From an uncultured Alphaproteobacteria bacterium (lineage in GTDB: Bacteria; Pseudomonadota; Alphaproteobacteria; RF32; CAG-239), in the NCBI GenBank assembly GCA_944390315.1, contig CALXPO010000027.1:1-64000 (forward strand): a stretch of DNA of 64,000 bases, given 5' to 3'. This document shows positions 3,639 through 43,488 of the stretch, one piece after another (position 1 is the stretch's first letter; every line of letters begins with the position of its first letter). A program made the translations under genes and the position numbers. The notes under the pieces were generated by a model, which did no database searches, was not told the origin of the DNA, and saw nothing but the letters and a program-made list of their open reading frames with translations.

Positions 3639-4361
3639 ATGTCGGCAAATCTCAAAATCAGCGGTTTGATAAAAGATTATGATACCATTCGCGCGGCTGA
3701 TAATATTTCTTTTGAGGCATTCAAAGGTCAAGTTATCGCTCTTTTGGGACCAAATGGTGCCGGAAAGTCAACTTTGATGAATATGATTGCCGGTTATTTG
3801 GCGCCGACGGAAGGGGAAATTTTTGTAATGGGGCAAAATATAAAAGATTATCCGCTTGAAGCTAAAAAAAATATCGGGTTTTTGCCCGAAGGTTCTCCGC
3901 TTTATCCCGATTTGACCGTACGTGAATTTTTAAAATATATGGCAGGATTGCGACTGCTTGATAATGCAGCCGTTGAAAAAGCCATTAATGTTGCCAAAAT
4001 AGAAAATGTTGCCGAACAAAAAATAGAAACCTTATCTAAGGGATATCAAAGACGCGTTGGTTTTGCTCAAAGTATTCTTTCCAATCCGCCGATTTTGCTT
4101 TTGGATGAACCGACTGACGGACTTGATCCCAATCAAAAAAGGCATATCAGAGCATTAATTGAGCAAATGGGCAAAGAAAAGACCATTCTTATTTCAACTC
4201 ACTTACTGGACGAGGCTGAAAACATATGCAATCGCATTATCCTGATTAATAAAGGTAAAATTATTGCCGACGGCAAAACGGAAAATATCGTAAAATTAGC
4301 TCATGCCAAAAGTTTAGAGGATGCGTTTTGCCAAATGACAACAACAGAAGAAGAGGCTTAA
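3639..4361 (+). CDS. ABC transporter ATP-binding protein (GldA/NosF-like)
   Basis: A 240-residue ABC ATPase with Walker A GPNGAGKST near 37-45, a Q-loop, signature LSKGYQRRVG, Walker B ILLLDEPTDGLDP and the switch His in STHLLDEAE. The sequence type matches ATPases that pair with ABC-2 permeases of the GldF kind. It is preceded by GGAGG and its stop abuts the start of the huge permease gene, so the two form one exporter. The cargo is unknown. Confidence 0.93.
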   Translation: MSANLKISGLIKDYDTIRAADNISFEAFKGQVIALLGPNGAGKSTLMNMIAGYLAPTEGEIFVMGQNIKDYPLEAKKNIGFLPEGSPLYPDLTVREFLKYMAGLRLLDNAAVEKAINVAKIENVAEQKIETLSKGYQRRVGFAQSILSNPPILLLDEPTDGLDPNQKRHIRALIEQMGKEKTILISTHLLDEAENICNRIILINKGKIIADGKTENIVKLAHAKSLEDAFCQMTTTEEEA

Positions 4362-7300
4362 ATGAAAAAATTGTGGGTAGTTACTAAAAACGAGCTGTTA
4401 CGTTATTTTATTTCTCCGTTGGCTTATGTCTATCTTGTCGCTTTTTTGTTATTGAATGGGTCCTTTGCCATCTATTTCGGTGGTTTTATCGGACGCGGAA
4501 TTGCTTCTTTGGATGCTATGTTTGCTTTTCAACCCTGGTTATATTTGTTGTTTATTCCGGGTATTTCAATGCGATTATGGTCTGAGGAATTTCGCAGTAA
4601 AACGGTTGTTCAGCTTTTAACCATGCCGGTTTCCATTTCGACTTTGGTTTGGGGCAAGTTTTTGGCTTCTTGGATTTTTGCTGCAGTCGCACTGGTACTG
4701 ACTTTTCCTTTCTGGCTGACGGTCAATTATCTCGGAACTCCGGATAATACCGTTATTGCCGTCGGCTATCTCGGAAGTTGGGTCTTGGCAGGTTGTATGT
4801 TGGCTATTTCGCAAACAATGTCCGCATTAACTAAAAATCAGGTAATAGCTCTGGTTTTGGCTGTTATTGCAAATTTTTTGTTCTTTTTAAGCGGCGTCGA
4901 ATATGTTCTCGGATTTTTCCGCTTATTTGCTCCGGCTGCCGTCGTTGATATGGTTGCTTCTTTCAGTTTTTTAATCCATTTTGCAACAATTACCGGCGGT
5001 TTGTTGGAATTGCGTGACGTTGTTTTCTTCGTTTCGGTTATCTTATTGTTTAACATTACGACGATTTTGGTGGTTAGCTTTAGAACTTCGGGAACTTCTA
5101 AATGGCTAAAATCAACTCAGGCCGGTTATTATATTCTATTTTTTATTTTGTTGTTGATGGCTTTTGGCGGAATTAATTTGTTGGCAAATCAGTTTTTGCG
5201 CACAACACAGTATGATTTTACGACCGAAAAAATACATACATTGACGCAATCTTCACGGAAAGTTCTTAAAAATTTGCCGGAACCGGTTATTGCAAAACTT
5301 TATTATTCTCCTCTTCTGGGACAAAGAAATCCTAATATCAGATTAATGTATGACAGAGTTCGGTTGTTGTTGGAACAATTTGCGCAAGTTGCTCCCGATA
5401 AGTTTAGTTATAAAATTTATAATCCGCGTCCGCTTGATGATATTGAGGATCAAGCCATTGTTGCAGGATTGCAGCCTTTACCGATTGTTGACCTCAATCA
5501 AAACGGCTTCTTTGGTTTAGTTTTGACCGACAGTGCCGACAATAAACAAATTATTCCCTTCTTTGTTTTGGAAAGATATGCGTATCTTGAGCAAGATTTG
5601 ATGGAAAAAATCTATCAGCTTTATCATAAGAAGAAAACCTTAGGTCTAATCAGCAGCTTACCTGTATATGAAACAGCTTTTGCAGGAGGTTACGTTTCTC
5701 CAAAATGGAATATCCTCAACGAGATTGAGAAGTTTTATGAAATTAAGATTATAACTAATGCTGATGATTTGACAAAAGTTGACTTGTTGATGATGATTCA
5801 TCCGCAAAATTTGAATGATGAAATGGTTGATGCTGTTGAAAATTATTCGAGATTGGGTGGAAAAACTTTGTTATTGCTTGATACTGCGGCTGAAGCAACC
5901 CGTATTTTTTCTCCGGATAATATCGAATTTTATCCGTCGAATTTGAATGGTCTGGATAAATTTTTCGGATTTCGTTTTTATAACGAACTTGTGGTGGCCG
6001 ATTTGGATAATTCGATTACGGTTGATGCAACCAAAAATTATTCCACAAATCCGATTTTTACTCAGGATGTTGTTCAGTTTGTGGCTCCGGCAACAAGCAT
6101 GAATCCTGATTTTCCTATAACACAAAATTTGCAGGGAATTTTGTTCGCTTCTGTTTCGGCAATTGTTCCGGACGGTAGTAATCACAGCTCATTTCTTCCG
6201 TTGATTAAAGGCGGAGATCAATCGGGCGTATTAAGCTCAGGTGTGGTCTATGATGGCAAAAATCCGACCGAATTGCTTAATCTGTTTAAGCCGGATGGAA
6301 AATTAAAATTTTTGGCGGCATTGCTAACGGCTAATCATACAAAAAATCCTTATGAAGTTATTGTGGTTGCCGATACCGATTTTATTTATGATTCTTTTTG
6401 GAGCACAAATCAGTCAATAATGAATACGAATTATTTTGTGCCTTTGTATGATAATGCTAATTTTGTGCTTAATTCCCTTGATTATTTGTCCGGAGATATG
6501 ACTTTGGTCGAGTTGCGGGGAAGAATTCAAAAAATCAGAAAGTTTGAAGATATTGAAGAGCTTAGAAAAGAAAATTTGCGAAATTTCAGAGTAAGAGAAA
6601 ATGAACTTTTTCAAAAAATAGAATATACCAAACGTTCTTTACAAGAAATTTTTGCAAAAAAGGCATTTGAGGAAAGAGAAAATTTCAATTCAGACGAATT
6701 GGCCTTAATTGCCGGTACCAGACAAAAACTTGATGATTTACGAATTGAACTGGCAAAAATCAGAATTGATATGCATCAAAATATTGAAAAAATTAATTTA
6801 ATCATAAAATTTGTAAATATTTATGCCGTTCCGTTATTGATTTTGCTGATTTTGGCAATTGTCGGCGGCAGAAAGTTGCTGACACATCGTATCGGCGGTT
6901 ATAAAATTATTTTTAACCGCGAATTTAAGTGGGCGGCGGTCATTGCTTTGCTACTGTTTGTCGGCGGTGGTCTGTCTTTCTACCTGTCTGCTCAAAAGGG
7001 GATTGAAGAATATGAAAATAAACCCGTTCTGGCTGAACTTGTTCATCAGTTGAACGAAATCCAAAAAATAACTTTAACCTCTGCCTCGGGAGTACTCAAT
7101 TTCTATAAGCAAGACGGTGTGTGGAAGTTGGAAAATGAACCTTGTTTGCCGGTTTATCAAGAGCGCGTTGAAAGTTTTCTGACGGCTTTGAGCGATATGG
7201 TTTATTATGAAAAAAAATCTGATAAAGCCGAATATCTGTCCAAATTTGGTTTGGAACCGAGCGCTGCAAAAGATTCAACCAGCGTCGAAGTTAAGTTGTT

Positions 7301-7820
7301 CGGTCCGAATAATAAAATACTGACTGATTTGGTCATCGGTAAATATGATATTGATATCGGACGCGGCGGGCGGGCGGCTTATATGCGTTTTGCCGATAAA
7401 TTTCAAGTATGGATGGTTAAAGCCGATTTAATCGATATGTCGGTCAAAGCTCAAGACTGGACTTACAGTAGTTTGTGGAATCTGCGTTTCGGCCGATTGA
7501 GCGGATTTAATAAAAATACTAATCTTAACAGAACCATGGAATTGGTAAAATACATGCTCAATACTTCCCTTAAGAATCCGATTAAACAAAAACCGGAATC
7601 CGAAAAAGTTTTAGCACTTGATTTGGCTGTTGAAGGAAATCAAAAAATCGGAATTGACTTTTGGCAAGATAAGGAGCATACCTACGTCAATTATGTCTTT
7701 GATAAAAAAACAATGTCAAAACATACGGAATTTTTTGCCAAGGCGGCTGAAAAATGTTATTACGAAATTGATAATAATGATTTTGAGAAGATAAAAAATG
7801 TCACAAACACAATCCAATAA
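4362..7820 (+). CDS. Three-domain ABC-2 exporter protein: GldF-like permease, GldG-like domain and DUF4340 domain
   Basis: This 1152-residue protein joins three parts usually encoded separately. Residues 1-240 form an ABC-2 permease with six membrane spans (GldF-like). A further span near 255-275 leads into a large extracytoplasmic GldG-like region (motif TTEKIHTLTQSS near 290), which ends in coiled coil and a membrane span near 825-842. Another span near 862-880 precedes a C-terminal DUF4340-like domain (GVWKLENEP, FGLEPSA). It directly follows its ATPase gene. GldFG homologues are required for gliding in Bacteroidetes, but wider homologues have no settled role. The last 23 bases overlap the CDF gene. 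Confidence 0.85.
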   Translation: MKKLWVVTKNELLRYFISPLAYVYLVAFLLLNGSFAIYFGGFIGRGIASLDAMFAFQPWLYLLFIPGISMRLWSEEFRSKTVVQLLTMPVSISTLVWGKFLASWIFAAVALVLTFPFWLTVNYLGTPDNTVIAVGYLGSWVLAGCMLAISQTMSALTKNQVIALVLAVIANFLFFLSGVEYVLGFFRLFAPAAVVDMVASFSFLIHFATITGGLLELRDVVFFVSVILLFNITTILVVSFRTSGTSKWLKSTQAGYYILFFILLLMAFGGINLLANQFLRTTQYDFTTEKIHTLTQSSRKVLKNLPEPVIAKLYYSPLLGQRNPNIRLMYDRVRLLLEQFAQVAPDKFSYKIYNPRPLDDIEDQAIVAGLQPLPIVDLNQNGFFGLVLTDSADNKQIIPFFVLERYAYLEQDLMEKIYQLYHKKKTLGLISSLPVYETAFAGGYVSPKWNILNEIEKFYEIKIITNADDLTKVDLLMMIHPQNLNDEMVDAVENYSRLGGKTLLLLDTAAEATRIFSPDNIEFYPSNLNGLDKFFGFRFYNELVVADLDNSITVDATKNYSTNPIFTQDVVQFVAPATSMNPDFPITQNLQGILFASVSAIVPDGSNHSSFLPLIKGGDQSGVLSSGVVYDGKNPTELLNLFKPDGKLKFLAALLTANHTKNPYEVIVVADTDFIYDSFWSTNQSIMNTNYFVPLYDNANFVLNSLDYLSGDMTLVELRGRIQKIRKFEDIEELRKENLRNFRVRENELFQKIEYTKRSLQEIFAKKAFEERENFNSDELALIAGTRQKLDDLRIELAKIRIDMHQNIEKINLIIKFVNIYAVPLLILLILAIVGGRKLLTHRIGGYKIIFNREFKWAAVIALLLFVGGGLSFYLSAQKGIEEYENKPVLAELVHQLNEIQKITLTSASGVLNFYKQDGVWKLENEPCLPVYQERVESFLTALSDMVYYEKKSDKAEYLSKFGLEPSAAKDSTSVEVKLFGPNNKILTDLVIGKYDIDIGRGGRAAYMRFADKFQVWMVKADLIDMSVKAQDWTYSSLWNLRFGRLSGFNKNTNLNRTMELVKYMLNTSLKNPIKQKPESEKVLALDLAVEGNQKIGIDFWQDKEHTYVNYVFDKKTMSKHTEFFAKAAEKCYYEIDNNDFEKIKNVTNTIQ

Positions 7821-8727
7821 ACAAAAAAATAATCGATTAAAAAAAATAGCCGTTACTGCCAGTGTTAGTGTTTCGGCATCCTTAGCCTTAATTAAACTGC
7901 TGGCATCCCTTTATACGGGGTCTCTTGCCGTGCTGTCGTCTTTGGTTGATAGTTTGTCAGATATTTTTTCTTCATTAATTACTTTTATTGCCGTCAAATT
8001 TTCTTCTCTGCCGGCAAGTGAACAACATCGTTACGGTTACGGAAAAGCCGAGGCTTTGAGTGCGTTGATTCAATCGGCTTTTATTGCCGGTTCCGGTGTC
8101 TTTGTTGTATATGAGGGTATCAGCCGTTTTATTTCTCCTCGTCCGGTTGATGGTGCCGGTGTCGGTATGGCGGTTATGATTGTTTGCACCTTGATTACGC
8201 TTGGATTGATTGCTTTCCAAAAATACGTAGTCAAAAAGACGGCTTCTTTGGCCGTTTCTGCCGATAGCGCTCACTATATGGTTGATATTGTGACAAACCT
8301 GTCAATCGTGGTTGGTCTCGCTGTTGTCAAAATTTTTGAAATTTATTGGTTTGATACTTTGGCGGCTTTATTTGTGTCTTCGTATCTGTTGATTAATGCT
8401 TATAAAATTGCTTGTGAAGCGATTGCGTTGCTGATGGATAAAGAATTGCCCGATGATGTTCGAAAAGAAATTGAGCGCGTGGTCACCGAATGCGATTTTT
8501 GCCGCGGTATACATGATTTGCGCACCCGTGATTTGGGGGAAATGTATATGTTTGAACTTCATCTGGAATTGGATGGTGATTTATCTTTGGCAAAAGCTCA
8601 CGATTTAACGGATGAAGTAGAAGAAAAATTAAAAAAACATTTTCCTAATGCACAGGTGATTATTCATCAGGATCCGGCAGGATTAAAAGAAAACAGACTG
8701 GATAATCACCTGGTTAAAAAAGCCTAA
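7798..8727 (+). CDS. Cation diffusion facilitator (FieF-like) metal efflux protein
   Basis: A 309-residue CDF transporter with six predicted membrane spans. The two metal-site motifs are visible: DSLSDIFSS in span 2 (near residue 45) and HYMVDIVTN in span 5 (near 160), giving the D-D/H-D tetrahedral site typical of Zn/Fe-transporting FieF-like members. The C-terminal 85 residues form the cytoplasmic metal-sensing domain with several His and Asp. It probably exports divalent metal by proton exchange. The start overlaps the end of the upstream exporter gene by 23 bases, indicating coupling. Confidence 0.9.
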   Translation: MSQTQSNKQKNNRLKKIAVTASVSVSASLALIKLLASLYTGSLAVLSSLVDSLSDIFSSLITFIAVKFSSLPASEQHRYGYGKAEALSALIQSAFIAGSGVFVVYEGISRFISPRPVDGAGVGMAVMIVCTLITLGLIAFQKYVVKKTASLAVSADSAHYMVDIVTNLSIVVGLAVVKIFEIYWFDTLAALFVSSYLLINAYKIACEAIALLMDKELPDDVRKEIERVVTECDFCRGIHDLRTRDLGEMYMFELHLELDGDLSLAKAHDLTDEVEEKLKKHFPNAQVIIHQDPAGLKENRLDNHLVKKA

Positions 8728-32869: not shown

Positions 32870-33583
32870 ATGGTAAAAAATATTGCAGATGAGCGCGATA
32901 AAGCCAGAAGGGTGGTTGAAGACAGAAACTTTGATTATCTTATTATGTTCTTAATCTGTATGGACTCTGTCGTACTGGGATTGTTAACGGTTGGTTTCAG
33001 AGATGTTAATTTTAACACGGTGTTGTTTCTTTTAGACCGATTGTGCATGGCCATTTTTATTGTTGAAATGCTGATAAAAATGTATGCTTACGGTCCAAAG
33101 TTTTTTAAGTCGGGTTGGAATATTTTTGATTTGACGGTTATTACCGTATCTTCACTGCCGGTGGCCAGTTATTTGATTGTCTTAAGAACATTTCGCCTTT
33201 TCCGCTTGCTGCGTTATGTCAATACCTTTAAGCCGATGAAAAACATTATCAATATCTTGTTGATGATATTGCCGAATTTTGCGGCTATGGCGGTGGTTTT
33301 GGCGGTATTTATGTATGTTTTCGGAATTTTATCGGTTAGTTTGTTCGGAGATGTCTTTGTCGAATTTTCGGATTTGCCCTCAGCGCTGTTGGCTTTGGTG
33401 CAAACATTGAGTCTGGATGGTTGGATAAGCGGAATTGCTCGTCCGGTTATGGCCGTATTCCCATATGCTTGGATATTTTTCTTATCCTTTGTTATGGTTT
33501 CGTTCCTGACGTTTGTCAGTTTCCTGCTTAGCGTCATTTCCGTTATGGTCCATAAAGAATTCAAAATAACGTCAAATCTTTAA
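32870..33583 (+). CDS. Voltage-gated-type ion channel subunit (Ion_trans family)
   Basis: A 237-residue six-span ion channel of the bacterial Nav/Cav type. S4 is visible as LRTFRLFRLLRYVNTFK near 105-121, with Arg every third position. The pore helix and filter read ALVQTLSLDGWISGI near 175-189 between S5 and S6, compared with TLESW in NaChBac; the Asp in place of Glu is unusual. The S6 segment and a short cytoplasmic tail complete it. Homotetramer likely. Ribosome site GAGAGAG precedes the ATG. Confidence 0.85.
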   Translation: MVKNIADERDKARRVVEDRNFDYLIMFLICMDSVVLGLLTVGFRDVNFNTVLFLLDRLCMAIFIVEMLIKMYAYGPKFFKSGWNIFDLTVITVSSLPVASYLIVLRTFRLFRLLRYVNTFKPMKNIINILLMILPNFAAMAVVLAVFMYVFGILSVSLFGDVFVEFSDLPSALLALVQTLSLDGWISGIARPVMAVFPYAWIFFLSFVMVSFLTFVSFLLSVISVMVHKEFKITSNL

Positions 33584-35861: not shown

Positions 35862-35936
35862 GCGGGCGTAGCTCAGGGGTAGAGCGCAACCTTGCCAAGG
35901 TTGATGTCGAGGGTTCGAATCCCTTCACCCGCTCCA
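35862..35936 (+). tRNA. tRNA-Gly (anticodon GCC) with a C-A pair in the acceptor stem
   Basis: A 75-nt tRNA with anticodon loop CTTGCCA giving GCC, T-loop TTCGAAT and encoded CCA. The acceptor stem GCGGGCG/CACCCGC pairs except the sixth position, C opposite A. The 3' strand is identical to that of tRNA-Gly(TCC) at 177-250, whose 5' strand has T at that place. Confidence 0.93.
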
Positions 35937-36124: not shown

Positions 36125-36152
36125 TTGACTATCAATATTTTGCGCTTATGAT
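36125..36152 (+). promoter_or_regulatory. Probable promoter of the Ycf35/radical SAM/Ycf46 operon
   Basis: TTGACT (36125-36130), 16-bp spacer, TATGAT (36147-36152), about 43 bases before the start chosen for the first gene. No second promoter is evident inside the tightly spaced operon. Confidence 0.6.
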
Positions 36153-36194: not shown

Positions 36195-36806
36195 ATGTCT
36201 CATTGCACCAAATTTGATTTTCAATATACCAACCGCAAGATTATTTTTAATACTTTTGAAGCTTTGGGATTGAAATGTGAGCATTCCGTTGTTGCCAGTT
36301 TTTCTTCCATATGGGAGAAAAAACTCGGAATCAATGCAACCGACCAAACTCCCGCGATAATTGCCGAAAGTAATGGTTTTAATTATTTTATGCTCAACTG
36401 CGGCAGCCATTACGAATTGTTTATTGAAAAGCATAATATGACGACAGATGAGGCTCAAATCAGCAAAAAAATGGCTGATGAGTTTCAAAAAGTTTATCTT
36501 GAAGAAACCGTTAAAGAAGCAGTAAAACAATTAACGGCTTCGGGGCAACCTGCCGTTTGGGAAAAGGATAAAAGTGGGTATGTTATTAAGTTTGGAACGC
36601 TTTACGATAAAACGATTTCTTTGAAAATGAACGGTAAAAAAACGGTGGAAGAAAAAGTGGTCGGTGTTAAAGGTTCATCTTGTGTTTCTTTGACCGAAGC
36701 CATAGAAAATATGCTTTCTTCCGCCGAAGTGGAACTGAACAGCGAATGGACCAAAGAATATTATCAGGAAGAAACGGATAATCTTGAAATTTATGAATTG
36801 AGTTAG
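36195..36806 (+). CDS. Fusion of DUF1257 (Ycf35-like) and DUF2997 domains
   Basis: About 203 residues. The N-terminal 125 residues match the DUF1257/Ycf35 pattern: an MSH start, a helix leading to ALGLKCE, a strand-rich AIIAESNGFNYFMLNCGSHYEL and a helix KMADEFQKVYLEETVKEAV before WEKDKSGYVIKFG. The last 60 residues (GVKGSSCVSLTEAIENML and EWTKEYYQEE) match DUF2997, normally a separate small protein. Both families accompany Ycf46-type AAA+ ATPases in cyanobacteria and other bacteria; function unknown. I start it at 36195 because Ycf35 proteins begin MSH; an ATG at 36171 is also in frame. First gene of the operon. Confidence 0.75.
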   Translation: MSHCTKFDFQYTNRKIIFNTFEALGLKCEHSVVASFSSIWEKKLGINATDQTPAIIAESNGFNYFMLNCGSHYELFIEKHNMTTDEAQISKKMADEFQKVYLEETVKEAVKQLTASGQPAVWEKDKSGYVIKFGTLYDKTISLKMNGKKTVEEKVVGVKGSSCVSLTEAIENMLSSAEVELNSEWTKEYYQEETDNLEIYELS

Positions 36807-36814
36807 GGGAAAAA

Positions 36815-37960
36815 ATGGAGAAAATTTATAAGGAATATTGGTTTTCTTATATGAAGAAATGCGTACTGATTACCATTCCGATTTTTATCTTTTTGATGAT
36901 TGGCTTTCAGTTTTTTGATTATGATTTTTCGACCGCACTTTGCTTTATGGGAATAATTTTTATAGTTACTTTTATGGGTTGTGTCGGAGCTTATTTTAAG
37001 GTTAACGAAATAAAATTCTTTAAAAACAGTATTTCTGCCGACGGCGAAACAGTTAAATATTCTCAATTTCAGGAAGTTTATGTCGAATCGGAACGAAAAT
37101 TACGTTTGCGGACGTCAAGCGAAAGAGATGTCTTGGAAATTTTGTTACCTAAATCATTTTTTAAAGAAGATATCGTTGCTCTCTTAAAAGAGTTTGAAGC
37201 TCACGGTAAAAAAGTTGTTTTTAACAAATACCTGTTTAATATTTTTGATATGAATGCCGATTTAGCCTCAATGCCGAAACACAAACTTTTTTGGTCGAAT
37301 CTGTTGGTGGTTGTTTTTTTGTGTTTTCCTTTTCTCGGTATCCATACGGATATAAAAGAAAATCAATATACGAGTTTTTATGATGACGGTACGCTTAAAG
37401 AAAAAGCTCCGCTCCGTAACGGCGTTCGTCAGGGTGTGGCCGTTGAATATTATCAGAACGGCAAGATTATGAGCGAAGTCGAATATAAGCAAGGGAATCC
37501 TGACGGAATCGTCAAACTTTATAATGAACAAGGGCAATTGATTTTTGACGGTTATATAAATGAAAACGGCCGTAGCGGAACTCATTTACTTTATGATGAA
37601 AATGGAAAAATTCAGATGGAATCCGAAGAAAAAAATAATGTCATTACCGGTGCGTTCCGTTATTACAAACCTGACGGAAAAATAGAAACCGATATTTCAA
37701 AAAATCCCGATAATGATAAATTCACCGTTAAATCCTACCGTGATAACGGAGTGTTATGGAACTATTTTGAAGTTAAAGACGGTATTCGCGACGGTAAATT
37801 TGTTTGGTATTGGGAAAACGGAAAGGTTCATATTGACGGAACAATTAAAGAAAATCACGTAATCGGCATCGAGTATGACGAAAACGGAAATAAAATCGGT
37901 GAAGTTTCGATGGATGTAGAACCGATGGAGGGATTAAAGAATGTTTTTGGCAAAAAATGA
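36815..37960 (+). CDS. Membrane-anchored protein with MORN-like (YwqK-type) repeats
   Basis: A 381-residue protein with membrane spans near 15-32, 38-58 and 160-178, followed by a C-terminal region of about 190 residues made of MORN-variant repeats of about 22 residues, each containing a Y/W-x-x-N/D-G-K core (EYYQNGKIM, KLYNEQGQL, LLYDENGKI, RYYKPDGKI, WYWENGKVH, EYDENGNKI). Such repeats form extended beta hairpin rods and may bind proteins or lipid. They also occur in proteins loosely labelled YwqK antitoxins; no toxin gene is adjacent. Eight bases after the first gene, and overlapping the next by 20 bases. Confidence 0.78.
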   Translation: MEKIYKEYWFSYMKKCVLITIPIFIFLMIGFQFFDYDFSTALCFMGIIFIVTFMGCVGAYFKVNEIKFFKNSISADGETVKYSQFQEVYVESERKLRLRTSSERDVLEILLPKSFFKEDIVALLKEFEAHGKKVVFNKYLFNIFDMNADLASMPKHKLFWSNLLVVVFLCFPFLGIHTDIKENQYTSFYDDGTLKEKAPLRNGVRQGVAVEYYQNGKIMSEVEYKQGNPDGIVKLYNEQGQLIFDGYINENGRSGTHLLYDENGKIQMESEEKNNVITGAFRYYKPDGKIETDISKNPDNDKFTVKSYRDNGVLWNYFEVKDGIRDGKFVWYWENGKVHIDGTIKENHVIGIEYDENGNKIGEVSMDVEPMEGLKNVFGKK

Positions 37961-38636
37961 TGAATTGGAAGTTCGTTCCAAACATATATCAAACAATCAT
38001 ATTTGGCAGTTGTTGGGATGGTCCATTTTTGTGGTTTTGTTGTTTTTTGCTTGGAATGGCGAAAAAGAAACTTGGGAGAGAATAAAGATTGTTGCTTTTA
38101 TTTTTATGGGGTGTCTTTTCCTTTTGGCTCTGATTTTTAATTTTAATTATAATACTTCCCGTTTTATTCTGCGCAACAATAAGGAAATATATTGCCAATT
38201 TCCGACTAAACTCGATGATGACAGGGGAAAAACCTATGAAACCAATATAGATTGTATATCTATGGCGGTATTTGCCGACAGTCGGGATTTGATTTTTTAT
38301 AATCGTGAACAAGAGCAGGATTATGTCTTTGATTTAAGTTTTTTCAGCCGTGATGACATACAATATATTGTTAATATCTTAAGCCAAAAAATTAAGGTTA
38401 AAATTGAAGATAAATTGGCACAAGAAGAGCATTTGAAATTGCCGACGACGGATGTTTTTGAAGAAAGCCAAAATGAAATGCCGGTTGAAAAACCCATTCA
38501 GCCCCGCCGACGCAGAGTGGCAGGCGCTCAGGTGCAGAAAGAATCGGTCAATATGGTTGAAGAAAACGTCCCTTCGGCTGTCGCAGAGCCTAAAAAGACA
38601 CGGTCTTCGAAAAAAGGCAGAAAGCTGGAATTATGA
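37941..38636 (+). CDS. Two-span membrane protein with basic C-terminal tail
   Basis: A 231-residue protein with two hydrophobic segments (about 18-37 and 45-65), a soluble domain of about 100 residues that contains VFADSRDLIFYNREQEQDYVFDLSFFSRDD, and a C-terminal tail rich in Arg and Lys (PRRRRVAG; KKTRSSKKGRK) separated by acidic and Pro stretches. Not recognised. The tail could contact nucleic acid or acidic protein. It overlaps the MORN gene at its start and the radical SAM gene at its end (ATGA), so it is firmly part of the operon. Confidence 0.72.
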   Translation: MFLAKNDELEVRSKHISNNHIWQLLGWSIFVVLLFFAWNGEKETWERIKIVAFIFMGCLFLLALIFNFNYNTSRFILRNNKEIYCQFPTKLDDDRGKTYETNIDCISMAVFADSRDLIFYNREQEQDYVFDLSFFSRDDIQYIVNILSQKIKVKIEDKLAQEEHLKLPTTDVFEESQNEMPVEKPIQPRRRRVAGAQVQKESVNMVEENVPSAVAEPKKTRSSKKGRKLEL

Positions 38637-39163
38637 CGGTTGAAAACATCAATATTCATCAGTTGTTGCCAAATTCGGAAGTCAACGGTCCGGGGAAAAG
38701 ATTTGTCGTTTGGCTGCAAGGTTGTCCGCTCAATTGTCCGGGGTGTTTTAATCCACTGACACACGGCAGTCAGGGAATATTGATGAAGATTTCAGATTTG
38801 GCAAAGCAGATAAATCAAACCAAAGATATTCGCGGGTTAACGCTGAGCGGCGGGGAACCTTTGTTTCAACTTGATGCGATTAAACAATTAATTCGGCTGA
38901 CAGATAAACGTCTGGATATTTTATTGTTTTCGGGGTATTCTTGGAACGAAGTGGTCAATGATGAGGCTAAAAAACAAGTTCTGCAAATGGTGGATGCGGC
39001 TCTTTTGGGACGGTATAATCAAAAGTTGTCACATCCGTTCAGAGGCAAAAAATTGGTTTTGCACGGCGGAAGAATTAAACCCGAGGAACTTAAACCGTGG
39101 TTGTCGACGGAAATTGTTTTGAGCGACGGTAAAGTTCAAATAACCGGTCTGTATAAAAAATAA
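38633..39163 (+). CDS. NrdG-like radical SAM protein (single 4Fe-4S cluster)
   Basis: A 176-residue radical SAM protein with the cluster motif GCPLNCPGCFNP near residues 31-42 (CxxxCxxC), LTLSGGEPLFQ near 65 (the GGE SAM-binding motif) and a short half-barrel, the size and layout of ribonucleotide reductase activase NrdG. No nrdD is adjacent. The link with Ycf46/DUF1257/DUF2997 genes points to a different protein substrate. Start ATG overlaps the upstream stop. No auxiliary Fe-S or SPASM domain visible. Confidence 0.88.
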   Translation: MTVENINIHQLLPNSEVNGPGKRFVVWLQGCPLNCPGCFNPLTHGSQGILMKISDLAKQINQTKDIRGLTLSGGEPLFQLDAIKQLIRLTDKRLDILLFSGYSWNEVVNDEAKKQVLQMVDAALLGRYNQKLSHPFRGKKLVLHGGRIKPEELKPWLSTEIVLSDGKVQITGLYKK

Positions 39164-39174
39164 GGTGAGGCAAA

Positions 39175-40773
39175 ATGACATTTAGAGAAGATTTACAAAA
39201 TTATCTAAAAGCAAGATATCCGTTGATTTTAATAAAATCAACCGAAGAGGACAGGTTATCGGCGGATTTGCAATCAATTGCGCAAACACTTAAGCATGAT
39301 TTGATTACTTGGAGTATTGCTTCGGGATTGAAATCGGACAATGCACAATTTGATCAAACGACGGTTGAGTTTAAAAAAGCGGTTGATACTTGCGAAAATA
39401 TTGCCAGATCGGGTAAGCCGTCGATTTTTGTTTTTTACGATTTATTGCCGATTTTATCGGCTCCGCAGGCGGGAATGGTTTATCAGCGTCGGTTGAAAGA
39501 ATTTGCGCTCAATATCCGTACCAACGGTTATCGTTGCAATTGTATCATTGTTTCTCCGAGAGCCGATATTGAGGGCAGTTTGGCTGCCGAGTTGACGGTT
39601 TTGGATTATCCTTTACCCAACCGTGCGGAAGTGCGCTCACAGGTCGAAAAATTTATTAATCAATACAAAGATGCCGCAAATGTTAAAATCGATACTTCCG
39701 ATAAAACCGTTTCGGCTTTGACCAATGCCGCTTTGGGATTGTCTTATGCCGAAATTGAAAATTGTTTGGCAAGGGCTTTGGTTGAAGATCATGCACTGAA
39801 CGAAAGTGATGTCAAAAACATTGTTAATGAGAAAAAGCAAATTATCCGTAAGAGCGGAATTTTGGAATATATAGATAATAAGCTGTCTTTGGAAGATGTC
39901 GGCGGTTTGAGTGTTTTGAAAAGATGGCTTGGTTTACGCGGGGCAACTTTTTCGCAAGAGGCTAAGAATTTTGGTTTGAACCCGCCCAAAGGGGTGTTGT
40001 TGGTCGGTATTCCCGGTTGCGGTAAATCTTTGACGGCAAAATGTGTTGCCAGTGCGTGGAATATGCCGTTACTCAAGCTTGATATGGGAAAAATTTTCGG
40101 TAAATATGTCGGAGATTCTGAGGCAAACATTCGTCAGGCGTTGAAAACGGCAGAAGCAATTGCACCTTGTGTTTTGTGGATTGATGAAATTGAAAAAGGT
40201 TTGTCCGGCGGCGGAAACGATTCCGGCACAAGCTCGAGAGTGTTCGGGCATATTTTGACTTGGATGCAAGATAAGACTTCGCCGGTGTTTACCTTTGCCA
40301 CGGCTAACAATATTTCGCACTTGCCGCCGGAATTGTTACGCAAAGGGCGTTTTGACGAAATCTTTTTTGTAGATTTGCCAGACTTTGAAGAACGTAAAAA
40401 GATTTTGGAAATTCATATTGCCAAAATAGGGCGAAAAGCAGAAGATTTTGATTTGGATACTTTGGCAAAACTTTCGGGTGAGGAATGTTTGGGGGATAAT
40501 ATTCGTCTTGCCGGTGCCGAACTCGAATCGTGGGTTAAAGACTCGTTGCTGGAAGCCTTTGCTCGCAGATTAAACGGTGACAAGACCGCGGATTTGTCAA
40601 TGACAGACTTTGAAACCGTTATCAAAAGAATGGTACCGATGGCCAAGATGCGTTCGGATGACTTTAAGGAATTGCGTGATTGGGCTAACGAAAACGCTGT
40701 CAGCGCGTCTTTTGCAAAACATTCGGATAAGACGGTTGGTGCCCTCGGTGGCAGAACGATAGATTTGTTTTAA
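39175..40773 (+). CDS. AAA+ ATPase of the Ycf46 type
   Basis: A 532-residue protein. Residues 1-220 form a Ycf46-like N-terminal region (LKARYPLILIKSTEEDRL at the start), followed by the AAA+ module: Walker A GIPGCGKSLTAKC near 281, Walker B VLWIDEIEKG near 338, sensor 1 FATANN near 378 and the Arg finger region LLRKGRFDEIFFVDLPDFEE near 391. The lid and a long C-terminal helical segment complete it. Ycf46 has no established biochemical role, although the module resembles classical hexameric unfoldases. Preceded by AAGGTGAGG and followed by the Cys-repeat gene after 12 bases. Confidence 0.9.
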   Translation: MTFREDLQNYLKARYPLILIKSTEEDRLSADLQSIAQTLKHDLITWSIASGLKSDNAQFDQTTVEFKKAVDTCENIARSGKPSIFVFYDLLPILSAPQAGMVYQRRLKEFALNIRTNGYRCNCIIVSPRADIEGSLAAELTVLDYPLPNRAEVRSQVEKFINQYKDAANVKIDTSDKTVSALTNAALGLSYAEIENCLARALVEDHALNESDVKNIVNEKKQIIRKSGILEYIDNKLSLEDVGGLSVLKRWLGLRGATFSQEAKNFGLNPPKGVLLVGIPGCGKSLTAKCVASAWNMPLLKLDMGKIFGKYVGDSEANIRQALKTAEAIAPCVLWIDEIEKGLSGGGNDSGTSSRVFGHILTWMQDKTSPVFTFATANNISHLPPELLRKGRFDEIFFVDLPDFEERKKILEIHIAKIGRKAEDFDLDTLAKLSGEECLGDNIRLAGAELESWVKDSLLEAFARRLNGDKTADLSMTDFETVIKRMVPMAKMRSDDFKELRDWANENAVSASFAKHSDKTVGALGGRTIDLF

Positions 40774-40785
40774 GGAGAAGCAGAA

Positions 40786-41040
40786 ATGAAAAAAGCGGTA
40801 TTTACTTTTTTGTTTTTGATATTGGCCGTTTCTTCGGTCCGAGCCGATTGTTGGAGTATCAGAGATTATGACAGCCAGCGGATGTGTCTGGCCAAAACCA
40901 AGAATGACACCGGTTATTGTTGGCAAATAAGAGATAATGATCAGCAAAAATATTGTCTGGCAACAATTAAAAAAGATCGTTCTTATTGTTGGCAGATTAA
41001 AAGCAACGACTTAAAACAAATGTGTTTGTCCGAACTTTAG
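40786..41040 (+). CDS. Secreted Cys/Trp triple-repeat peptide
   Basis: An 84-residue protein with signal peptide (residues 1-20, ending VRA). The mature 64 residues are three repeats with period 23: CWSIRDYDSQRMCLA, CWQIRDNDQQKYCLA and CWQIKSNDLKQMCLS, each with two Cys 12 residues apart; a Tyr or Gly-Tyr closes the linkers. Six Cys suggest three disulfides, or thioether or other modification. AAGGAG lies nine bases upstream of the ATG, 12 bases after the AAA+ stop, so it belongs to the operon. A large hairpin follows. It could be a substrate of the radical SAM protein, by inference only. Confidence 0.8.
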   Translation: MKKAVFTFLFLILAVSSVRADCWSIRDYDSQRMCLAKTKNDTGYCWQIRDNDQQKYCLATIKKDRSYCWQIKSNDLKQMCLSEL

Positions 41041-41052
41041 CTTTTGTTTAAA

Positions 41053-41098
41053 AATAAGAAACTCTTGCAACCTTTTTAGGGGTCGCAAGAGTTCTTAT
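41053..41098. terminator. Intrinsic terminator after the Cys-repeat gene
   Basis: Long near-perfect hairpin: AATAAGAA-ACTCTTGC with GCAAGAGTTCTTATT and T-run; ends the operon and may serve the convergent gene. Confidence 0.88.
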
Positions 41099-41113: not shown

Positions 41114-41863
41114 TTAATCTTCCAATGCTTTAGGCGGCTGGAAAGTGGCTTTTGCCATATCTGTCGGCTGAGCCGAGTTGCCTTCATAGAAGACAGTCTT
41201 ACAGCCGCGGACAAAGCGTACCACCTTGTAGCTGGCGAGGCGTCCGTCGTTACCCCACCACACGGTGTAATTACATCCATAACAGTCGTTAGGGTTTGTA
41301 ATGTTAATCATCGGTGTGGTCAGGAACTCCAGTCCTCCCCACAGAACACCGAACACGTTAATGTCTGAGTAAGCCCACTCCGAAACCACACCGGCTTTCG
41401 GTTTGTAGAGCTCGTAGTCAAATTCATGACGTACGAATTCGTAACGCGCCTCCAGCTCCTCTGCAGAAATGGAGTAGAACTCGTTTTTTACCGTGTTCTG
41501 GATGGCTACAAAGCCTTCCTTCAGCTCAACACGGTGCTCTTCAAAACCGTCGATAACGGTCTTGAGAATTTCCCCCGGTTTGATGTTTGGCCATACACGT
41601 ACGTTTTCCTGTTTCTGGGCATAGAAAACACCGTGTTTCTTGGCCATTTCCTTTCCGTGTTGGTAGAAATCGACGAAACGGTATTCGACACCGATTTCGT
41701 TTATTAGTACCTGCGGGAAAGAAACCTCCTGACCGTCAACAACCGCTACCGGTTTGTTGTTGATAACGGTGATGTAGTTACCTTTGAAGTTTTCTACATC
41801 TTTTGCGGCGATCTTTGTGAATACTGTGTTGTCTACTGTTCTGAAAATCTTGTTAAATTCCAT
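41114..41863 (-). CDS. Unknown protein with foreign base composition (possible horizontal transfer)
   Basis: A 249-residue protein with no signal or membrane span. Stretches such as GNYITVINNKPVAVVDGQEVSF (near 29) and GVFYAQKQENVRVWPNIKPGEIL (near 79) look like a beta-rich scaffold, and residues CYGCNYTVWWGND near 199 hold a CxxC. The third codon positions are visibly richer in C and G (AAC, CCG, GGT, TTC) than in neighbouring genes, which favour A and T. There is no AGGAG-type site before the ATG; the leader is A/T-rich. I do not recognise the family; a phage or Bacteroidetes-like origin is a guess. Confidence 0.7.
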   Translation of the reverse strand: MEFNKIFRTVDNTVFTKIAAKDVENFKGNYITVINNKPVAVVDGQEVSFPQVLINEIGVEYRFVDFYQHGKEMAKKHGVFYAQKQENVRVWPNIKPGEILKTVIDGFEEHRVELKEGFVAIQNTVKNEFYSISAEELEARYEFVRHEFDYELYKPKAGVVSEWAYSDINVFGVLWGGLEFLTTPMINITNPNDCYGCNYTVWWGNDGRLASYKVVRFVRGCKTVFYEGNSAQPTDMAKATFQPPKALED

Positions 41864-42516: not shown

Positions 42517-43488
42517 TTATTTGGCTCGGACATACCAAGTGCCGCGCGCAGACCCTTTGCGAATAAGCCAACCGTCGGTGACCAATGCCGCCAAATGCTT
42601 TTTAACGGTATTGATGTTGGCTTGTGTTTTGTCGGTGGCTTCGCGTAAGGTAATGCGTTCTTTTTGTTCGCTTAAGCGTAAAATCTGGACCGAGAGTTCC
42701 GGTAATTCGGAATAGTCGTCTGATTGTCCGCTGTCTTGATCTTGCAGGCGTTTTTGCAGACGCTGAACGGTTCGTAAAAAGAATAAAATCCATTCACCAT
42801 AGTCAGGGTGTTTTTCAACTAAAGAATTTTGGGTTTGACGCAGACAACGATAATATTCTTCTTTGTTATCTTCTATGGCCGCTTCAAGGGAGGTGTATTG
42901 CAGATAATCGTAGCCCGATTTGAGTAACATCAGCATGGCTACGGCGCGTGCCAAACGACTGTTGCCGTCTTGAAACGGGTGGATAATCAAAAATTGAACC
43001 ATAAATAATGCTGTGACAATCAACAGATGACAACTGCGATTTTCCGTGCACATATGCTCCCATTCAAAAAGTTTGCGCATCAGTTGCGGGGTGTCAAACG
43101 GGCTGGCTGTTTCAAAAAAGATATCTATCGGACGACCGTCAATTGTTTTGGAATAAACCGGATTAAGGCGTTTTTTGTATTCTCCTTTTTCGTGCTCCTC
43201 AATAAGCGAATCGGCAAAAAGTAATTTATGCAGCTTTTTGATGGTATTTTCAGAAAAGTTTATTTGTTCATAATGATTAAAAATTTGTTCCAACACTTGA
43301 TAGTAATTGTGTCTTTCAATTTTATTGTTGATGCTTGCAACACTTTCGTTAAGAGCTTTTTCTTTTAATCTGTTGCCGATTGCAGAACCAATACCGCCTT
43401 TGCCTTGCCAATATCCTTTGTATTCATCTATAGCAGCAACGGCAGATAATATCGGTTGAGAAATAGCAATATCTTCCATTCTTATCAT
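42517..43488 (-). CDS. Fic-domain protein (AMPylator-type)
   Basis: A 323-residue Fic protein. The active-site motif IHPFQDGNSRLARA near residues 174-187 fits HPFxDGNxRxxR, with the catalytic His and nucleotide-binding residues intact. The N-terminal helices and a KGGIGSAIGN-type segment near 34-43 precede the Fic fold. The C-terminal 65 residues form a winged helix (RITLREATDKTQANINTVKKHL), which is common in Fic proteins that act on or with DNA regulators. AGGAG precedes the ATG. A nearby antitoxin gene is not evident. It may modify a host or self protein by AMP transfer. Confidence 0.88.
   Translation of the reverse strand: MIRMEDIAISQPILSAVAAIDEYKGYWQGKGGIGSAIGNRLKEKALNESVASINNKIERHNYYQVLEQIFNHYEQINFSENTIKKLHKLLFADSLIEEHEKGEYKKRLNPVYSKTIDGRPIDIFFETASPFDTPQLMRKLFEWEHMCTENRSCHLLIVTALFMVQFLIIHPFQDGNSRLARAVAMLMLLKSGYDYLQYTSLEAAIEDNKEEYYRCLRQTQNSLVEKHPDYGEWILFFLRTVQRLQKRLQDQDSGQSDDYSELPELSVQILRLSEQKERITLREATDKTQANINTVKKHLAALVTDGWLIRKGSARGTWYVRAK

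Follow-up and report, generated by a model that had tools for sequence, protein, structure and literature searches.

Ycf35, Ycf46 and DUF2997 are kept in cyanobacteria and in red-algal plastids, and to our knowledge their function is a question that has been open for a long time. Proteins of the same families are encoded by a six-gene operon at 36195-41040 of the stretch studied here, 64,000 nucleotides from an uncultured alphaproteobacterium (GenBank assembly GCA_944390315.1, contig CALXPO010000027.1, positions 1 to 64,000), the whole of which we call the window. The operon combines a protein in which a probable DUF1257 (Ycf35-like) part is fused to DUF2997 and an AAA+ ATPase with a radical SAM enzyme, two membrane proteins and a secreted-looking peptide. 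In Synechocystis, duf2997 and ycf35 adjoin the ferredoxin gene fed7 in a cluster named g (PMC4284462). The protein families are those of the operon, but cluster g lists a ferredoxin and not a radical SAM gene, and in the operon DUF1257 and DUF2997 are fused.

A second point of comparison is given by the VMAP ternary conflict systems, which are centred on an NTPase and in which radical SAM genes of the FxSxx type stand beside proteins with conserved C-terminal peptides (FxSxx-COOH and an RxD type; PMC7159879). VMAP systems have vWA/MoxR cores, a metallopeptidase and a SPASM-type radical SAM enzyme for FxSxx, and their ATPase carries no tag, whereas the operon has a Ycf46 AAA+ ATPase and a minimal radical SAM enzyme that lacks SPASM; it has no peptidase, and its C-terminal motif is also found on the ATPase. 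Going by the published definition (PMC7159879), we reject membership in the VMAP/FxSxx systems, as neither a vWA-MoxR-VMAP core nor a zincin metallopeptidase is found among the operon genes.

Databases have long shown the gene set as such; what we regard as new is a short C-terminal tag that the AAA+ ATPase shares with its neighbours, and the system that this tag implies. No description of such a system appeared in the titles and abstracts of the listed open-access papers on DUF1257, DUF2997 and Ycf46 (subscription journals were outside the scope). Our preferred reading, to which we give a probability of roughly 0.4, is a Ycf46-centred, membrane-linked protein-remodelling system, in which the tag would dock a p97-like segregase and its membrane partners onto the DUF1257/DUF2997 module. 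The genes and tags of the operon are as follows.

36195-36806, plus strand: gene 1, probable DUF1257 (Ycf35-like) fused to DUF2997; the DUF2997 part lies at 36645-36764 and has the signature GVKGSSC
36815-37960, plus strand: gene 2, PH-like membrane protein with two transmembrane segments and C-terminal MORN_2 repeats (Pfam), untagged
37941-38636, plus strand: gene 3, PH-like membrane protein with two transmembrane segments and a disordered-looking tail (RRRRVAG...), ending in KKGRKLEL-COOH
38619-38633, plus strand: C-terminal tag of gene 3, R-K-L-E-L; the stop codon overlaps the radical SAM start (ATGA)
38633-39163, plus strand: gene 4, small single-cluster radical SAM enzyme (Fer4_12, CPLNCPGC)
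39175-40773, plus strand: gene 5, Ycf46-type AAA+ ATPase, with a structure that resembles both p97/Cdc48 rings
40747-40770, plus strand: C-terminal tag of the AAA+ ATPase, G-G-R-T-I-D-L-F, disordered in the model
40786-41040, plus strand: gene 6, secreted-looking peptide of 84 amino acids with three Cys/Trp repeats, an optional passenger

A C-terminal tag shared by unrelated proteins

It is well supported that the AAA+ ATPase and neighbours unrelated to it in sequence end in the same tag, [G/E]-R-x-[ILV]-[DE]-[FL]-COOH. In the window it closes gene 3 (...KKGRKLEL) and the ATPase (...LGGRTIDLF), both of which the initial annotation had missed. The tag was first seen in loci of the same bacterial family, where it ends gene 3, a MORN-SH3 protein of genome G045 (TKRRLEL) and a protein of G148 (KGRKLEL), and where the ATPases end in LGGR[TKR]IDL. 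Genome G130 carries it on ankyrin, PH-like and other proteins (GRRLEL, TRRIEL, RRKLEL and others). The stretch before the tag is an unconserved, disordered linker, and the Arg of the tag is invariant across 31 AAA+ homologues.

To quantify this we used a wider survey of 80 Ycf46 loci from named genomes, in which the pattern R-x-[ILV]-[DE]-[FL]-COOH was counted with the residue before the Arg left free. Open reading frames (ORFs) were called mechanically, and many of the loci are contigs of metagenome-assembled genomes (MAGs). Tails such as GGRTIDF were found on the ATPases and GRIIDF, ERNLDL, GRRLDL and similar ones on the neighbours. Tagged same-strand neighbours numbered 43/261 near a tagged ATPase versus 0/180 near an untagged one, and 4/261 of the other ORFs of tagged loci carried the tag. 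A Fisher test of near versus rest gave p = 8.5e-12. Inside proteins the same pattern was counted 31 times over 63,324 positions, and when the residue classes are reordered, 1.2 matches are obtained on average, compared with 43 for the tag. Furthermore, position -6 is occupied by G or E in 43 of the 51 tagged partners, though the pattern does not demand it.

The tagged partners are of several types, namely PH-like, MORN-SH3, ankyrin, TPR, GYF/helix-hairpin-helix and Mrr-nuclease proteins, and form at least seven groups that are unrelated in sequence. By Pfam, 30/47 of them have HHH_3; TPR, ankyrin, GYF_2 and Mrr_cat nuclease domains also occur. The tag ranges over Pseudomonadota, Bacillota, Bacteroidota, Melainabacteria, Actinomycetota, Fusobacteriota and one archaeon (a Methanosphaera MAG). 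Outside the set that defined the pattern, two plasmid operons have it on both ATPase and partner (L118, GGRQIDF and SRRLDL; L120, GGRTFEF and GRRLEF), and in P. polymyxa M1 two proteins behind the radical SAM gene end in the variants RVIHF and RVIRL. The one cyanobacterial plasmid locus that was read (L122) has no tagged proteins.

In G130, a single operon (L020:240-3094 and 3770-8169) encodes seven tagged proteins, several of them with ankyrin repeats. Most of these have a second motif, R-[RK]-R-x-[VI], upstream of the tag; it is also present in gene 3 of the window (RRRRVAG).

The tag might instead be a processing or degradation signal, read by a housekeeping or AAA+-linked protease, with surplus ATPase among its targets. 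Short hydrophobic C termini often serve as degrons, and the tail of the ATPase is disordered in its model. We regard this explanation as improbable: a recurring protease gene was not observed in the operons, conservation of the Arg and of the acidic residue equals that of the hydrophobic positions, which is not so in ssrA-type degrons, and the tails sit on operon-specific proteins only, with one clear case in the genome of the window besides the ATPase. A scan of that genome with a degenerate pattern gave 12 matches versus 10 for the control, with one other plausible long ORF (RRFDL).

The AAA+ ATPase

Gene 5 has an AAA domain (Pfam, 1.2e-32) and full-length matches to loci across phyla. It is of the Ycf46 type in having intact Walker A and B motifs and a long N-terminal domain, collinear with its homologues; the name itself we take over from the initial annotation and general knowledge, no Ycf46 model being among the library matches. 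In the AlphaFold model the last 30 residues are disordered (confidence score pLDDT about 30), so that the tail is free and not docked in cis. Without the tail, the model aligns in Foldseek to both rings of p97 over about 560 columns (E 5e-24). Since the global template modelling score against p97 is only about 0.4, the placement of the domains is unsure.

By likeness of fold alone, gene 5 may work like a p97/Cdc48 segregase. Both rings align, and the short disordered C-terminal tail could be a docking peptide; the C-terminal tail of p97 is bound by PUB/PUL cofactors. On the other hand, there is no ubiquitin system here, the tail of the ATPase is also carried by the partner proteins, and the partner module consists of DUF1257/DUF2997 and a radical SAM enzyme.

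Gene 1 and the membrane proteins

The DUF2997 part of gene 1 scores above the Pfam cut-off (PF11211, 6.9e-8), with the GxKGxxC signature aligned. Its N-terminal half has no direct Pfam match to DUF1257 (PF06868); in a profile-profile comparison it matches a DUF1257 alignment with a probability of 95.6 (E 1.2e-8), and the lead member of that alignment matches PF06868 at 1.6e-22. The AlphaFold model of gene 1 is confident (pLDDT 85.6), and a structure search found no fold match in the PDB with E < 0.001.

Gene 2 has MORN_2 repeats (Pfam, 4.8e-18) and gene 3 has no Pfam match; the homology between the two is only weak (hhalign probability 48.8). Proteins of the gene 2 type recur 5' of the radical SAM and AAA+ genes in L016, L018 and, tagged and with an SH3 domain, in L011. 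MORN-type membrane proteins are found in 4/5 loci of the family, and most tagged loci have tagged membrane proteins.

Genes that accompany the tag

Among the 80 loci, 38 ATPase tails are tagged and 42 are not, and partner genes were scored in all of them by tblastn, as counts uncorrected for the tree. DUF2997 is present in 35/38 tagged versus 15/42 untagged loci (p = 1.3e-7), DUF1257 in 32/38 versus 15/42 (p = 1.2e-5) and the radical SAM gene in 29/38 versus 13/42 (p = 5.7e-5). The ATPase tail therefore tracks DUF2997 and DUF1257 best and the radical SAM gene next.

The strongest competitor of docking has the radical SAM enzyme act on the tag itself, modifying the tails of ATPase and partners (cross-link, epimerisation or C-terminal cleavage) as a switch-on, in the manner of radical-SAM-coupled peptide systems. 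Small single-cluster radical SAM enzymes are typically protein activases, and strict GGR-type tails have a radical SAM gene in nearly every operon with enough flank. Most apparent exceptions lie at contig ends (L027, L035), and in two GC-rich loci (L049, L040) the gene is present by tblastn. However, R-x-h-E-h tails occur with DUF1257 and/or DUF2997 and no radical SAM gene in Omnitrophota (L034 and L052, ERKLEF/L, with DUF1257/DUF2997), Verrucomicrobia (L086) and Acidobacteria (L090), the tail of the last two being KRVFEV/KRIFEV, with DUF1257 or DUF2997. For a GGRIVDY tail in L084 none of the partner genes was found. The radical SAM gene also stands beside quite different ATPase tails, and in 22/51 partners the position before the Arg holds Glu in place of Gly, which speaks against a glycyl-radical site. 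We consider modification of the tag rather unlikely.

These different tails belong to a second Ycf46 subtype, whose ATPase ends near ...QExxNPF[IL] (L070, L073, L078, L079, L097, L147). It comes with DUF2997 and a radical SAM gene and, in most cases, with large proteins (about 500-1100 amino acids), and no tagged neighbours were seen. When 398 Pseudomonadota were surveyed with DUF2997 as the seed, only two carriers emerged, the second of which is of this subtype.

Several observations weigh against docking onto DUF1257/DUF2997 as the general role of the tag. One large BLAST cluster, mostly helix-hairpin-helix proteins, holds 38 of the 51 tagged partners next to at least seven other clusters, and in this cluster the tag is partly due to descent. 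The co-occurrence statistics are phylogenetically correlated, as 7 changes on the AAA+ tree suffice for the tag, versus 23.6 for shuffled labels. The Omnitrophota loci have the tail without the radical SAM gene. Finally, in G045 a locus inside the ribosomal-protein/secY region (L011:5922-8668) has a tagged SH3-MORN protein and an ATPase that has lost its tail, and neither the radical SAM gene nor DUF1257-DUF2997 was detected in that genome. Either this locus is in decay, or the tag can act in the absence of DUF1257-DUF2997 and the radical SAM enzyme. That radical SAM gene and ATPase tail were lost together is also what would be expected if the enzyme acted on the tail.

The radical SAM enzyme and the Cys/Trp repeat peptide

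Gene 4 matches Fer4_12 (2e-25) and Radical_SAM (PF04055, 9.8e-8) in Pfam and has exactly three Cys, in the CxxxCxxC motif of the radical SAM superfamily, to which it belongs. Its closest named relative is NrdG, which it resembles in the Fer4_12/Radical_SAM fold, CxxxCxxC and size. It could thus be an activase of the anaerobic ribonucleotide reductase that is merely parked in the operon, yet it scores 90.1 bits against the NrdG model TIGR02491, below the cut-off of 126.1, its operon has no NrdD, and it travels with DUF1257, DUF2997 and Ycf46. The initial annotation had stated that the enzyme has no nrdD partner. This holds for the operon; elsewhere in the genome nrdD is present at C21:8351, and directly behind it stands its own activase (C21:10262-10966). 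Because nrdD has this adjacent activase, gene 4 is not its NrdG, and the identification as NrdG was rejected; we find the parked activase hardly credible. A pairing with an nrdD elsewhere had been named as a finding that would weaken the idea of a system, and this check did not weaken it. No radical SAM gene of this kind was found in viral contigs, the phage matches being ordinary NrdG-like genes.

Gene 6 carries three C-W-x-I...C-L repeats and begins 12 bp behind the ATPase gene, both in the window and in G061. From this position the initial annotation had proposed the six-Cys peptide as the substrate of the radical SAM enzyme. A peptide of this type stands 3' of the ATPase in only 2/5 loci of the family, most radical SAM operons are without it, and relatives stand alone, without the operon, in the congeners G001 and G006. 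Relatives are also found on 115 plasmid records, nearly all from Pseudomonas (Pseudomonas/Stutzerimonas), without a related radical SAM gene; the matching plasmid search with the radical SAM gene gave only two Paenibacillus plasmids. As a general substrate the peptide was ruled out, and even modification of gene 6 in this operon is very improbable. A maturase of ribosomally synthesised peptides of the SPASM kind was rejected as well: the enzyme has only three Cys, no precursor peptide is conserved across loci, and the Cys peptide is not linked to it. Gene 6 is an optional secreted passenger.

The peptide belongs to a small, secreted-looking and operon-independent protein family with three C-[WY]-x-I-x-D-x-D...C-L-A repeats (window 40786-41040, L007:1453-1737, L008:1492-1749, L018:2344-2598).

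Operon layout, genomic slot and distribution

The six plus-strand ORFs at 36195-41040 are tightly packed, as had been annotated, with gaps of 8, 11 and 12 bp and overlaps of 20 and 4 bp; the gene identities given at the time (DUF fusion, its DUF1257 half as probable, MORN membrane protein, NrdG-like radical SAM enzyme, Ycf46 ATPase, Cys-repeat peptide) hold too. The operon was also said to have one promoter-like element and a strong terminator. The terminator was recovered. One promoter-like site was seen, which is weak evidence, as such sites are only modestly more frequent overall than in shuffled sequences (23 versus 13.2). The flanking features are as follows.

35862-35936, plus strand: tRNA-Gly(gcc); the operon starts just downstream
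36125-36152, plus strand: promoter-like site TTGACT-16-TATGAT, 10/12 match, weak evidence
41059-41094, no strand assigned: terminator hairpin of 14 pairs, which separates the operon from the convergent gene 41114-41863 (minus strand); the T tail scan match is on the minus strand

The operon occupies a variable slot behind the tRNA-Gly. In the congener G004 the same tRNA is followed after 0.7 kb by a GtrA-Fic synteny, which in the window lies 6.1 kb behind the tRNA, and in G011 other genes stand behind it. Attachment-site repeats around the insert were looked for and none was convincing. Within the family, the radical SAM gene is found in 4/152 genomes and the ATPase in only 2/57 relatives. Outside the family, the AAA+ tree places a Bacteroidales MAG and Pseudomonas crudilactis closest, followed by Brevibacillus; each of them has a fused DUF1257-DUF2997, which suggests horizontal spread. 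Arthrobacter, Rhodococcus and Paenibacillus have copies on plasmids, conjugative ones included.

The idea that these genes form a recurring system is borne out, as the radical SAM gene, DUF1257, DUF2997 and Ycf46 are found together across many phyla. The initial annotation had held that the idea would weaken if the membrane and Cys-peptide genes were absent from related operons. This is the case for the Cys gene in most of them and not for the membrane genes, which recur too.

In the tRNA-Gly slot of the congener G011 (L139:1115-2317), MORN-like repeats are fused to a domain resembling ADP-ribosylglycohydrolase. In the window, 42517-43488 (minus strand) encodes a Fic-family-looking protein beside a GtrA-like gene, syntenic in G004, and 32870-33583 (plus strand) a single-domain voltage-gated-like ion channel (PF00520, 4e-35) just 5' of groES/groEL.

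Proposed mechanism and meaning

In the remodelling system that we prefer, the DUF1257/DUF2997 module would recognise the tag as a docking peptide. Membrane-anchored sensor or effector proteins (here the PH-like gene 3) and the segregase would assemble on one platform, and the radical SAM enzyme might modify the platform or the tag and so license the machine, perhaps solely when oxygen is low and conditions are reducing. What is sensed or attacked would be set by the MORN, ankyrin, TPR, GYF, helix-hairpin-helix and nuclease modules. More broadly, we see an even chance that this is a prokaryotic plug-in system found across phyla, in which the ATPase and unrelated membrane sensors or effectors share an address tag, with DUF1257/DUF2997 as reader and radical SAM control, and which effectors join by gaining the tail.

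A role in defence is plausible from the mobility and the nuclease partner. This would be a statement on role, compatible with docking: the whole module would act against phages or plasmids with exchangeable sensors and effectors. The patchy presence in the family, the variable slot and the conjugative plasmids would fit, as would the Mrr-type nuclease among the tagged proteins and some flanking defence genes. On the other hand, no specific model of PADLOC-DB 2023 fits, the matches being limited to general AAA (IetA-like) and weak viperin ones, and enrichment of defence genes in the flanks is not established because the flanks of untagged Ycf46 loci also hold them. On balance we lean against defence as the role of the whole module.

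The tag turns Ycf35, Ycf46 and DUF2997 into a testable machine, with the tagged proteins as candidate partners and DUF1257/DUF2997 as candidate reader. If the proposal is true, it would describe a p97-like system of prokaryotes in which a common address label recruits exchangeable membrane proteins.

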